Positions 12,510-17,073 of a stretch of DNA of 22,602 nt are shown here, piece by piece; positions within the stretch are counted from its first letter, which is position 1, and every line of letters starts with the position of its first letter. The translations under genes were made by a program, and so were the position numbers. The DNA comes from a virus. The stretch covers positions 1-22,602 of the IMG/VR virus record IMGVR_UViG_3300027668_000112. One strand, 5' to 3'. The notes beneath the pieces were generated by a model. The model saw nothing but the letters and a program-made list of their open reading frames with translations. It did no database searches and was not told where the DNA came from.

Positions 12510-12518
12510 GTATTTATC
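12510..12518 (-). promoter_or_regulatory. Late-type promoter box for the gp13-like gene
   Basis: Minus-strand GATAAATAC overlaps the TGA stop of the 427-aa gene and gives a leader of about 38 nt. A weaker sigma70-like pair, TTGATA-17 bp-TATAGT, can be drawn from the same bases. Confidence 0.65.
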
Positions 12519-13800
12519 AAAAAACTTTTATAATCAAACTGTGGTCATTAAATCTGCCATTCAATTTTATTTCAACACTGTTGATGGCTTCAAATTCCTT
12601 GCTTAATGCACGTTTTGTTACCTTCTTGAACATTGCCAGTTGGGCAAGTGGCTTCCGTAATGTCTTCTGGACGCTCGTCAATGGGTCAAAACCTGTAATA
12701 GTTGTTCCCTTGACGCTAAATCCCGAACCATCTCTTTTTAATCCCTTAGGATCAATATTAGAAGCATAGTATATTCCTAGTTTTCTAGTCTTAGAGTTGT
12801 AGACTACTGCCACATTTGCCCCTATTAAGTCTGTTGGTGGTACACTAATTGACTTTGTTTCTGGATGATGGTCTAAGTATTTGAACTTACTAACTTGATT
12901 TTCTGCACTTATTACCTTCTTCTTACGAGGCTTTCTTGTTACTTTTCCTTTTAGTACAATATTATCACACGCATCCATTATAGTTTTGTACATATTATAT
13001 TGATTCTTTATATCGACTTTAGACAGATGTGTATAGCCCTCTTTAAGTTGAGTGTGCATGTCTTGTTGAATTTCATCCATCGCTTTCATTTCTTTAGCAG
13101 ATGGTGGATTTACTAATTCTGAAAAATCATCAAACATCGGTTTGTAGATTGATGCTATTATCTTCGCATGATTTGGTTTTGCACCAACAATCAGTAGCAT
13201 TGTTTGAGGGTCGAAACTAGATAACATCTCTTTTGAACCATCATACCCATCAATGAACTCTTCAATATCATCTGACATTTCTAAAGACTTAGCAAACAAA
13301 AGTTGTTGAATCGTAGGCTTATATTTGGTAACTTTAATTGTATCTTCTACTTTTTTCTCTTCTTTAATTTTTTTACCGTGTTCGATAATACTTTCCAATT
13401 CTGTTTTGACTGAATCAGTTGCGTTTTTCATAGAATCTGATGAAAGTCCTGGCATTGATATCATGTATTCTGAAACACCTTCGTGATTTTCTGGCATTCC
13501 GTTAGTCAATGCTCTGACATATCCAGCAAGTGTACTTCTTGTACGCCAATCTGGCGCTGATTTGTAAGATGCAATATCTTCTTTTGAATAATCATTTGCT
13601 TTCATCCAATCGACTACCCAAATAATGAAATCTTTATAGTTGTAAAAATAACTATAATAATATGGAGTGCGAGAACGTTCTCTGTAGTACTCTTCGCCTG
13701 ACCATTGGTCTGCACCTTTCCAGTCGGGTTCGTATCCCACCATATACTCGTCAGTGAATTTTCCTTTCATCGCTATCTTTTTTCTTTTCGTCATTACCAT
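12517..13800 (-). CDS. Conserved-looking 427-aa phage protein of unknown function
   Basis: The frame extends to a TTG at 13818, but I place the start at the ATG at 13800 (MVMTKRKKIAMKGKF); the ATG at 13794 is also possible. GAGGG lies eleven bases before 13800. Visible parts are a Tyr/Trp-rich region (residues about 35-65, YYYSYFYNYKDFIIWVVDWMK), a segment WRTRSTLAGYVRALTNGMPE, a lysine-rich helical middle (125-150), and a C-terminal beta-rich part around GANVAVVYNSKTRKLGIYYA. I have the impression that similar proteins occur in T4-like marine phages, but I can assign no function. A perfect sigma70 promoter lies just upstream, so it may act early rather than as a virion part. Confidence 0.8.
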   Translation of the reverse strand: MVMTKRKKIAMKGKFTDEYMVGYEPDWKGADQWSGEEYYRERSRTPYYYSYFYNYKDFIIWVVDWMKANDYSKEDIASYKSAPDWRTRSTLAGYVRALTNGMPENHEGVSEYMISMPGLSSDSMKNATDSVKTELESIIEHGKKIKEEKKVEDTIKVTKYKPTIQQLLFAKSLEMSDDIEEFIDGYDGSKEMLSSFDPQTMLLIVGAKPNHAKIIASIYKPMFDDFSELVNPPSAKEMKAMDEIQQDMHTQLKEGYTHLSKVDIKNQYNMYKTIMDACDNIVLKGKVTRKPRKKKVISAENQVSKFKYLDHHPETKSISVPPTDLIGANVAVVYNSKTRKLGIYYASNIDPKGLKRDGSGFSVKGTTITGFDPLTSVQKTLRKPLAQLAMFKKVTKRALSKEFEAINSVEIKLNGRFNDHSLIIKVF

Positions 13801-13842
13801 CTCTGTTATATCCCTCAACTTTATATATCAACAATATTAAGT

Positions 13843-13871
13843 ATTATATGCCACATTTATCTTTTTGTCAA
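13843..13871 (-). promoter_or_regulatory. Perfect-consensus sigma70 promoter for the 427-aa gene
   Basis: On the minus strand TTGACA (13866-13871) and TATAAT (13843-13848) are exact and separated by the optimal 17 bp. The -35 overlaps the stop of the oxygenase gene. The spacer contains GATAAATG (13854-13861), a late-like box in the same orientation. The leader to the ATG at 13800 would be about 36 nt. Confidence 0.85.
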
Positions 13872-14590
13872 GTTTTTTGTGATTTATTATCAAATCTTGC
13901 TGTTTTATTCGAAGTATCTATCTCTCTAATTCTCTCTATTATGTTCACATCAAGTGCATTTATTAGCATTGCACTTCTAAATTCATTACTATTATTTGGC
14001 ATCGTACTATGTAATGTTCTCGAATTGTATATCAAACAATCACCTGGATTTGAAACAAATTGAAATCCCTCTGTCGTTAACAAGTCGTTGTACTCTTCTT
14101 GGTTCTCTTCTATATCTTTATAATAGTATCTACTTTTATGTGAGCCAGGTAAAACACAGGTTGCTCCATTTTCTAATGTGAACTTGTCTAATGGGATAAT
14201 AATCTGCACACCGAAGAGTTCGTCATTCGTTGACCTAGCAAAATCTTCAAATCGATAAGGAGTGTCAATGTGTGCCCTTATCTTTGTGCTGCCTGGTCTT
14301 GTTGTGATAGTATCAACAATATGGATGCCCCATTCTTTGCCGTTGAACATTGCATCAATATGTCTACCCAAAACATCTACTACCGGCTGCCACATCTCTC
14401 TTGGTGGCTCTTTACTCCAACAAACGTTATATTCTCTACCTTTTCTGTGTTTCCCGTAGTATTCCCCATTTACCGCGTTGCCACGGTGTATATTATCTGG
14501 GTTCATTGCCCACAACTTAAACTGTCTTACTGTAAATGGAGAGATTATCTCTTTTATGGAGATAAAACCTTGATTATCATTAATTAACAT
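13868..14590 (-). CDS. PhyH-like 2-oxoglutarate/Fe(II)-dependent dioxygenase
   Basis: The 240-aa protein has the phytanoyl-CoA dioxygenase-type layout. The iron ligands are His107 and Asp109 in RAHIDTPYR and distal His194 in RTLHSTMP, and Arg205 is a candidate for binding 2-oxoglutarate. The core segment VQIIIPLDKFTLENGATCVL with PGSHKSR (148-154) and NPGDCLIYNSR is typical. The family hydroxylates small molecules, or sometimes other substrates, using O2 and 2-oxoglutarate; the substrate here cannot be predicted. AGGAAGG lies eight bases before the ATG. Both a sigma70-like promoter (14642-14670) and a T4-late box (14613-14620) lie upstream. It is diverged from the gp14-like gene by 97 bases. 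Confidence 0.85.
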   Translation of the reverse strand: MLINDNQGFISIKEIISPFTVRQFKLWAMNPDNIHRGNAVNGEYYGKHRKGREYNVCWSKEPPREMWQPVVDVLGRHIDAMFNGKEWGIHIVDTITTRPGSTKIRAHIDTPYRFEDFARSTNDELFGVQIIIPLDKFTLENGATCVLPGSHKSRYYYKDIEENQEEYNDLLTTEGFQFVSNPGDCLIYNSRTLHSTMPNNSNEFRSAMLINALDVNIIERIREIDTSNKTARFDNKSQKT

Positions 14591-14612
14591 TATTCATACC
14601 TTCCTAAATGTC

Positions 14613-14620
14613 TATTTATA
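14613..14620 (-). promoter_or_regulatory. T4-late box for the oxygenase gene
   Basis: The minus strand reads TATAAATA, an exact T4 late -10 element. By T4 geometry +1 is near 14607, leaving a 17-nt leader that contains AGGAAGG. Confidence 0.65.
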
Positions 14621-14641
14621 GTTTCTGTATTATATAACTCT

Positions 14642-14670
14642 ATTATATGATAAATACACTAAGAAGTCAA
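14642..14670 (-). promoter_or_regulatory. Sigma70-like promoter for the oxygenase gene
   Basis: On the minus strand TTGACT (14665-14670, one mismatch) and TATAAT (14642-14647, exact) are separated by 17 bp. Its spacer holds the plus-strand late box at 14649-14657, so the two promoters overlap physically on opposite strands. Confidence 0.7.
14649..14657 (+). promoter_or_regulatory. Late-type promoter box for the plus-strand neck unit
   Basis: GATAAATAC lies 30 bases before the gp14-like ATG; +1 would be near 14662. It is the only late box pointing into the gp14-gp15-NUDIX run, and it sits within the spacer of the minus-strand sigma70-like promoter. Confidence 0.7.
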
Positions 14671-14687
14671 CTTATGGAGAAAAATAA

Positions 14688-15695
14688 ATGCCTCGCCTTA
14701 GTCTATGGAATCCTAAAAAGGGTAACGATTACAAATTTATCGATAAAAATATCAAGTCACATTTTGACCATGGCGGAACTTCGCTTCTAATTCATAAGTA
14801 TATTGGCTCACAAGATAAAACTGCGGCGGACTACGACCCGGCGTCTCCTGCTATACAAGATTTACTTTTTTTAGAAAATCGTGATAGAAAATACGAAAAA
14901 GATTTATACGACTTAAGAGGTGTATATACTGTATCTGACCAAGATTTCGAATTATCACAATTCGGTATGTTCTTAGGCAATGACCAACAAGTATTCACTC
15001 TTCATTTGAACGAGATGGTTAATCAACTAGGCCGTAAGATAATGACTGGTGATGTAATTGAACTTCCACATATGCGGGAAGACATGATGCTCGAAGGCAA
15101 TGATGGGGTTGACCCAGATGCTGTTAATCAATACTGGGTAGTCCAAGAAGCAACAAAGAGTGCTGAAGGATTTGACGCAGGTTGGTGGCCACATATTTGG
15201 CGTGTTCGTTGTAAGCAATTACAAGATACACAAGAGTATTCGGATATTCTTGGCACTGGTGAAGAAGCAGATGATTTGAAAAACATTTTGTCTACATACA
15301 ATAAAGAACTTCAAATTACTGATGCTGTCGTTCTTGAGGCTCAAGATAATGTTCCTGGAAAATACTGGGACTACAGAACAAACAACTTAATGTATGCAAC
15401 TCAAGCCAATCATCCAGACGATGTAGATTACGCAACAGTGGCGTATGGCAAAACATTTCCAGATAGTCCATCATCTGATTCATATTTCTTAAGAACAGAT
15501 TATACACCATCAAGATTATTTCAATACAGAGATAGTAAGTGGTTCAGAATCAACGATGACGATGGAGCATGGGAAGTGGGACATGCATTACACAATCAAT
15601 TTATTAACAATAGTGGCACAGTAACATTAGATGACGGCACCACTATCACATCAAAAGTCAATCTGTCAAAAGCAGTAAGACCAAAGGTAGACTAA
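14688..15695 (+). CDS. gp14: Probable neck protein, T4 gp14-like, with C-terminal extension
   Basis: The 335-aa protein is followed directly by gp15, the usual gp14 position. The central part, residues about 105-190, has a pattern compatible with gp14: TLHLNEMVNQLGRKIMTGDV, IELPHMREDMML, then YWVVQEATKSAEGF and WWPHIWRVRCKQL. T4 gp14 (256 aa) has a comparable KEGDLIYFPMDNSLFEI stretch. The last 95 residues go beyond the T4 length and contain a fibre-type piece near 255-290 (DSYFLRTDYTPSRLFQYRDS, then KWFRI). GGAGA lies seven bases before the ATG. In T4, gp14 binds gp13 to complete the neck; here gp13 is on the other strand. Assignment is by context and pattern, and is less certain than gp15. 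Confidence 0.6.
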   Translation: MPRLSLWNPKKGNDYKFIDKNIKSHFDHGGTSLLIHKYIGSQDKTAADYDPASPAIQDLLFLENRDRKYEKDLYDLRGVYTVSDQDFELSQFGMFLGNDQQVFTLHLNEMVNQLGRKIMTGDVIELPHMREDMMLEGNDGVDPDAVNQYWVVQEATKSAEGFDAGWWPHIWRVRCKQLQDTQEYSDILGTGEEADDLKNILSTYNKELQITDAVVLEAQDNVPGKYWDYRTNNLMYATQANHPDDVDYATVAYGKTFPDSPSSDSYFLRTDYTPSRLFQYRDSKWFRINDDDGAWEVGHALHNQFINNSGTVTLDDGTTITSKVNLSKAVRPKVD

Positions 15696-15696
15696 T

Positions 15697-17073
15697 ATGG
15701 CACAAAAACATTTCTATGACAATCAAGTTCGAAGATACATTCTACAATTTGTTAGAATGTTCAGTGGGTTCACAGTTAAAACTGGAAGAAAGAAGAATGA
15801 CAATGTAACTGATTATTATATTAGAGTTCCATCAAGATATGGAGATGTATCTCGTATGGCGGCAACTATTCTCAAAGGAAACTCTGAGAACGTTGTAAAT
15901 TCTGCACCATTTATCGCGGCACATGTTCAAAGTTTACAACCAGACAGACAACGACTACAAGACCCATTCTTTCAGGATGCTGTAAGTGTCAACGAAAGAA
16001 AATTTGATGAGAATACTCAATCATACACAAGTGAACCTGGACAGAAATATAATGTAAAACGACTAATGCCAGTTCCTTACTTACTGAACATGCAAGTTGA
16101 TATTTGGACTTCTAATACTGACCAAAAGTTACAATTACTTGAACAGATATTAGTTCTATTTAATCCAGCATTAGAAATACAACACAATGATAATCCAGTC
16201 GATTGGACTACTATTACAGTAGTAGAGATGACTGACTTACAATGGACAAGCAGAAGCATACCTGCTGGAATTGAAGACCAAATTGATATTGCCACAATGA
16301 TATTTCAAATTCCTATTTGGATTAATCCACCAGCACAGGTATCAAGACAAAACGTAATTAGAAATATTATTAACAATATTTACACCTATACAGATATAGA
16401 CACACTTGATTACGACCCAGATGCATTTGAATTCTTTAAAGATTTGAACGCCCAGTCAAGTGTTATTGTCACTCCAGGAAACTATGCACTACGAGTTTAT
16501 GAAAGTGGTGGTACAGTATTGTGTAGCCCATATGCAAACGGAAATTATGATGATAGTATAACATGGGCAACTGTGCTTAAAGAATATGGCACATTAGATA
16601 GTGGTGTTTCAAGACTTCGATTAAAGTATCATGGAGAGATTGATGACCTTAATGCTGATGTTATTGGTACATTGACATCCACTGGTGTTGCTGACACTTT
16701 ACAATTTACGATAGACACAGATACATTACCAACTAATACGGTAACGTCAGTTGATAAAATTCTCAACGCATCTACCGCCAAACCTGGCTTTTCTGGATTA
16801 CCAGCCGCCACGGTAGGTCAACGATATCTAACACTAGACGCGGCGAAGAGTAGCAGTGTTTGGGGAATTGATGTTTCTTCGAATGATATTATAGAATATA
16901 ATGGAACTGCATGGGTACTTAGTTTTGATGCAAGTGCATACAGTACACGTGCTTATGTAAAAAATACATTTTCATCACAACAATTCAAATTTGAGAAAGG
17001 TGAATGGACTGATACGTTCCAAGGAATATATGATTCGGGATATTGGAGACTAGAACTAGTAACGACTCCATAA
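15697..17073 (+). CDS. gp15: Tail sheath terminator/stabiliser, T4 gp15 family, with fibre-like C-terminus
   Basis: Residues 1-235 follow T4 gp15: HFYDNQVRRYILQFVRMFSG (T4: YFYNSSFRRYATLMGDLFSN), YYIRVPSRYGD (T4: KFIRVPITYAS), MPVPYLLNMQVDIWTSNTDQ, LLEQILVLFNPAL and IFQIPIWINPP. Gp15 caps the finished tail and joins it to the neck. Length is 458 aa against 272 in T4. The extra C-terminal half contains GQRYLTLDAAKSSSVWGID followed by IIEYNGTAWVLS, a layout like DUF2793-type tail-fibre modules, then a GEWTDTF...YWRLELV end. It starts one base after the gp14-like stop, with AAAGG in the preceding codons. Its stop overlaps the NUDIX start (TAATG). Confidence 0.9.
   Translation: MAQKHFYDNQVRRYILQFVRMFSGFTVKTGRKKNDNVTDYYIRVPSRYGDVSRMAATILKGNSENVVNSAPFIAAHVQSLQPDRQRLQDPFFQDAVSVNERKFDENTQSYTSEPGQKYNVKRLMPVPYLLNMQVDIWTSNTDQKLQLLEQILVLFNPALEIQHNDNPVDWTTITVVEMTDLQWTSRSIPAGIEDQIDIATMIFQIPIWINPPAQVSRQNVIRNIINNIYTYTDIDTLDYDPDAFEFFKDLNAQSSVIVTPGNYALRVYESGGTVLCSPYANGNYDDSITWATVLKEYGTLDSGVSRLRLKYHGEIDDLNADVIGTLTSTGVADTLQFTIDTDTLPTNTVTSVDKILNASTAKPGFSGLPAATVGQRYLTLDAAKSSSVWGIDVSSNDIIEYNGTAWVLSFDASAYSTRAYVKNTFSSQQFKFEKGEWTDTFQGIYDSGYWRLELVTTP

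Follow-up and report, generated by a model that had tools for sequence, protein, structure and literature searches.

The window analysed here, the whole 22.6-kb fragment of an uncultured virus (22,602 nt), contains a 97-nt gap (positions 14591-14687) that lies exactly between the ATG of a minus-strand oxygenase gene at 14590 and a plus-strand ATG at 14688 (Table 1). The PHROG match of the PhyH-family protein, to 2OG-Fe(II) oxygenase, is weak; no match to it was found among named phages, nor, with its N-terminal part as the query, in bacterial genomes. The plus-strand gene is called gp14 from its position beside gp15, the T4-type tail sheath stabiliser, and its PHROGs family is named just 'virion structural protein'. 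The gp14-position protein is 36-41 % identical to virion proteins of the PA5oct, SCTP-2 and Atu_ph07 type of jumbo phages, and its homologue in PA5oct is annotated as having been detected by mass spectrometry. The contigs of close relatives are up to 246-343 kb in length.

The stretch between gp13 and gp14 (12517-14590 of the window; also loci L204, L205 and L288-L302) resembles a slot for accessory genes. The gp13 and gp14 genes of Atu_ph07 and Phosso are immediate divergent neighbours, while in the window the oxygenase gene and an ORF of 433 aa lie in between. In other phages the slot is occupied by a different minus-strand gene, with a putative epimerase-like start, which has a late box of its own.

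Table 1 Genes and promoter elements at the oxygenase/gp14 junction, in order of their position in the window
Feature	Position	Strand	Evidence or remark
PhyH-family 2-oxoglutarate/Fe(II) oxygenase, 240 aa	13868..14590	-	Pfam PF05721, E=7e-17
Shine-Dalgarno-like AGGAAGG of the oxygenase gene	14600..14606	-	Sequence; conserved within the window's clade
Second, T4-like late box TATAAATA(G) before the oxygenase	14613..14620	-	22 nt from the oxygenase ATG; derived in the window's clade
Predicted +1 of the sigma70-type promoter (minus-strand A)	14635	-	7 nt past the last -10 base; A in 42/49 lineages
Sigma70-type (early-class) promoter of the oxygenase	14642..14670	-	-35 TTGACT 14670-14665, 17-nt spacer 14664-14648, -10 TATAAT 14647-14642
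Late promoter box GATAAATAC of gp14-gp15	14649..14657	+	Wholly within the spacer of the minus-strand promoter; in 49/49 oxygenase-bearing lineages
Predicted +1 of the late promoter	14662	+	13 nt past the first box base by T4 numbering; A in 47/49 lineages
gp14-position virion structural protein, 335 aa	14688..15695	+	phrog_11591, E=3.5e-80
gp15, T4-type tail sheath stabiliser	15697..17073	+	Pfam PF16724, E=2e-26

The initial annotation had placed three promoter elements in these 97 bases, namely a minus-strand sigma70-like promoter, a minus-strand T4-late box and a plus-strand late box, and all three are found where it put them, correct to the base. The minus-strand promoter, TTGACT-17-TATAAT, agrees with the consensus at 11 of 12 positions, and its hexamer spacing lies inside the 16-18 nt accepted for sigma70. 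The window has 4 non-coding near-consensus sites (at least 11/12), where shuffles predict 0.12, and five contigs together have 32, where approximately 1.3 are expected, while the complete composite pattern did not occur in any of 100 shuffles. A further TATAAT-like hexamer lies 13 nt downstream of the -10 (14629-14634, minus strand) without a -35, and most members of the window's clade have kept it.

The plus-strand box GATAAATAC is located 30 nt upstream of the gp14 ATG and has what is looked for in a late promoter: a NATAAATA core, a short leader and a late virion gene behind it. In the window and the contigs of four relatives this nonamer was counted 45 times in non-coding and 4 times in coding DNA, and this enrichment identifies it as the late motif of the group. 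In T4 the late box extends from -13 to -6 relative to the start (PMC1524935). A gene for a gp55-like late sigma factor (phrog_234) was found in seven of the eight relatives searched, including PA5oct, with E values of 1e-18 to 1e-23. The corresponding open frames (L362-L367) encode approximately 290-309 aa, compared to 185 aa in T4, and the gene itself has an early promoter and is divergent from a late gene.

Promoters of the sigma70 type occur also elsewhere in these genomes. Within the virion-gene region of the window, perfect ones precede the deoxynucleotide monophosphate kinase (DNMK) gene (TTGACA-18-TATAAT, 11483-11454, minus strand) and the conserved 433-aa ORF (TTGACA-17-TATAAT, 13843-13871, minus strand). 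In the relatives, near-consensus promoters are likewise present before the 433-aa ORF and DNMK genes, and consensus promoters stand ahead of the genes for the gp55-like late sigma, DNMK and ClpP protease, with one mismatch in the case of ClpP. As these are early-type genes, the promoters can be regarded as early-class, and the two classes may be named early and late with fair confidence on the basis of motifs and gene content.

The placing of the plus-strand late box inside the spacer of the minus-strand promoter, also claimed by the initial annotation, was borne out (14649-14657 within 14664-14648), and the overlap proved to be both conserved and specific to this junction. Each of the six genomes or contigs compared has exactly one interleaved early/late pair, and this is the pair at the oxygenase/gp14 junction. 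The near-complete relative G007 (342.6 kb) has 68 early promoters and 51 late boxes, and no second pair of this kind. Elsewhere in these genomes, divergent early and late promoters, those at the late-sigma gene among them, stand back-to-back, with the -35 at a distance of 25-61 nt from the late box.

Conservation was assessed in 49 oxygenase-bearing lineages more than 3 % apart in gp14 DNA, which were fetched by gp14 protein homology alone. Loci fetched by motif were excluded from the statistics, as their use would have been circular, and a wide pattern scan with GATAAATACNNNNNNNNGTCAA, which returned mostly unrelated coding matches, was not taken as evidence. All 49 lineages share the same late box (pairwise identity 1.0) and the -35 hexamer has a mean pairwise identity of 0.98. 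In the -10 the identity is 0.973 at positions 1, 2 and 6 compared to 0.78 at positions 3-5. The intergenic flanks are at 0.47-0.53. The fourfold sites of gp14 are at 0.468, i.e. there has been ample time for divergence. The value obtained for the nine promoter columns was never reached by nine random other columns in 100,000 draws, in a test that ignores phylogeny. Relatives of gp14 that have no oxygenase gene possess the late box and lack TTGACT. The three-element arrangement is thus confirmed as real and not due to chance.

The variation that does occur is informative as to the function of the minus-strand hexamers. The -10 is found as TATAAT, TATTAT, TATAGT or TATATT, all with T1, A2 and T6, and varies just as far as a sigma70 -10 tolerates. 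In lineage L042 the -35 (TTAACT) and the -10 (AATATA) are both degraded and both late boxes are intact, as is expected if the -35 and the -10 form one unit separate from the late box. A contrary case is L294, in which the -35 reads TTGCAT, with three of six bases kept, and the oxygenase gene is present. At position 6 of the -35 nearly every lineage has T in place of the consensus A, which hints at an extra constraint from the opposite strand.

The minus-strand late box, TATAAATAG, shares its core with the phage's own late motif GATAAATAC and differs from it in the first and the ninth base. The T4-like core recognized in the initial annotation is therefore present, and conserved within the clade, but the box does not conform to the consensus of the phage itself, so that its strength is uncertain. 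Its core is invariant in all 22 lineages of the window's clade, in which the neighbouring bases vary, and outside the clade it occurs in one of 27 lineages, L066, where TATAAATA overlaps the -10. In the gp14 tree the lineages with this box form a single clade of 22, the window included (support 99/99), inside the oxygenase-bearing group. Judged by this tree the box is a feature gained once, and its nested position makes the interleaved pair the older element and the minus-strand box the later addition. An ancestral origin of the box, considered because outgroups have divergent late boxes at the same junction, was rejected in favour of the single gain.

We consider it probable that an early and a late promoter form a divergent unit at this junction and that two holoenzymes make use of the same 29-bp stretch. 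Host polymerase of the sigma70 type would use TTGACT-17-TATAAT early in infection for leftward transcription of the oxygenase gene, and later, polymerase with the gp55-like late sigma would use GATAAATAC for rightward transcription of gp14-gp15. Occupancy of the shared site would be exclusive, and a late enzyme bound there would contribute to closing the early promoter. We infer from the sequence that the two promoters are active, when they act, that they exclude each other and what follows from this. With textbook footprints, a sigma70 complex starting from 14635 covers approximately 14616-14690, and a late complex starting from 14662 approximately 14625-14682. As these footprints overlap, the two complexes should be mutually exclusive, in agreement with the earlier suggestion that polymerase on one promoter would keep it from the other; judged from the geometry, simultaneous occupancy would be sterically excluded. 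By T4 geometry the two predicted late starts (14662 on the plus and 14607 on the minus strand) are separated by 55 bp and lead outward in opposite directions, and two late complexes thus need not exclude one another and could nearly coexist.

The consequence for the oxygenase would depend on the clade. The initial annotation had expected oxygenase expression to be turned down as that of gp14-gp15 begins. As worded this is not supported for the window, since the minus-strand late box, if active, would maintain or restart oxygenase expression late. The expectation would fit only clades without this box, in which the oxygenase would be early-only. In the window's clade TATAAATA is an addition that lies downstream of the early promoter and ahead of the oxygenase start. 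Late re-expression of the oxygenase is expected there, and the gene would pass from an early to a late promoter instead of being turned off. It is also possible, and proposed here tentatively, that the loading of the late holoenzyme itself represses the early auxiliary gene, i.e. that the junction acts as a switch without a regulator, from which one clade escaped by gaining a late promoter.

The main rival explanation accepts both promoters, each with its own time of use, but takes their overlap for a side effect of tight packing and ascribes no regulatory consequence to the exclusion. These genomes have little non-coding DNA, and once two promoters are interleaved neither of them can shift, so that their conservation needs no extra reason; a constant spacing follows from the interleaving alone and does not count as additional evidence of regulation. 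Moreover, T4-type phages have other ways of shutting off their early promoters (PMC2988021), and their late promoters are silent early and require late factors (PMC2988020). As early and late transcription are separated in these phages with no overlap, promoter exclusion need not do the switching. On the other hand, the spacing of 25-61 nt at the other divergent early/late junctions of the same genomes speaks mildly against compaction, and the leader lengths are variable, and free to vary, on both sides of the interleaved pair. Shortage of room is thus not an obvious cause of the overlap, and we regard compaction without regulation as rather unlikely, though deserving serious weight.

A different reading of the conserved -35 is that AAGTCAA, which would form bases +4 to +10 of the late gp14 RNA, is kept as an element of the plus-strand leader, for translation, RNA stability, late initiation or protein binding, its resemblance to a -35 being incidental. 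On the minus strand, position 6 of the -35 and the adjacent base are invariably T-T, while the other early promoters of the phage have TTGACA, and AAGTCAA merges into the gp14 Shine-Dalgarno sequence (AAGTCAAGGA) in many of the lineages that do not belong to the window's clade. However, the window's clade has a separate Shine-Dalgarno sequence and still keeps AAGTCAA, as do L034 and L038, in which gp14 starts approximately 80 nt further on; an origin solely as a Shine-Dalgarno sequence was rejected on these grounds. AAGTCAA is found in no other late leader, and the idea that late promoters in general have it as a downstream component was accordingly dismissed. It is also absent from the relatives without the oxygenase. 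The sigma70-style variation of the -10 and the joint loss of -35 and -10 in L042 also argue against a leader element, which we consider improbable. Consensus boxes rich in A and T are easily found in AT-rich DNA, and weak sigma70 matches in the region (67) are no more than the 68.7 expected. Chance is nevertheless refuted by the approximately 25-fold excess of non-coding near-consensus sites and by the conservation in 49 lineages, and the probability left to it is negligible. In L034, L036 and L038 an insertion of approximately 55 nt separates the late promoter from gp14 and contains a tiny ORF with a Shine-Dalgarno sequence of its own.

The nearest functional precedent is the A2c/A2b-A3 region of the Bacillus phage phi29, in which early (A2c/A2b) and late (A3) promoters diverge within one short region and constitute the early-to-late switch (PMC3100819). 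Early and late promoters are divergent in one regulatory region in both cases. In phi29, however, a single host polymerase serves both promoter classes, and the phage proteins p4 and p6, bound between the promoters, redirect it by repressing the early and activating the late ones, whereas at the present junction the late box lies inside the early spacer, the late promoter would depend on another sigma factor, and no regulator is known or needed. The interleaved layout would in fact leave little room for a regulator of the p4/p6 type.

With the T4 late promoters (TATAAATA, served by gp55, gp33 and gp45) the plus-strand box shares the 8-bp core at -13 to -6 before late virion genes, and a gp55-like gene is present in the relatives (PMC1524935, PMC2988020). 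It differs from them in having as a rule G as the first base and a following C (GATAAATAC), and in being embedded in an opposing early promoter. The early promoters of T4-type phages, read by host sigma70, likewise match the host consensus excellently before early-type genes (PMC2988021), but those of T4 are of the extended form with a GTTTAC-like -35, while here plain TTGACA/TATAAT is used and, at this junction, interleaved with a late promoter. Competition of polymerases for overlapping DNA is also a property of face-to-face and overlapping divergent promoters in bacteria; the present pair would differ in combining two sigma classes that probably act in different phases of a lytic infection. 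A search of the open literature, which did not extend to subscription papers, gave no description of an interleaved early/late arrangement of this kind.

If the proposed divergent unit is correct, the placing of two sigma-factor sites would by itself be enough to build an early-to-late switch, and this switch would act on an auxiliary metabolic gene in widespread uncultured marine jumbo phages. The versions of the junction with and without the minus-strand late box, together with the loss in L042, provide a natural comparison for which different levels of oxygenase transcript are predicted in the late phase. Existing marine metatranscriptomes could reveal these differences without culture.

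Other close arrangements of promoter elements were seen in the relatives. At 88599-88617 of G001 two late boxes lie head to head on opposite strands, a few bases apart. At 56886-56976 of G003 (L094) the leader of a minus-strand TTGACT-17-TATAAT promoter holds a plus-strand late box in reverse, and the early leader would thus cross a late promoter. In G001 and G002, which are syntenic to G003, late boxes face each other, possibly at the same junction.
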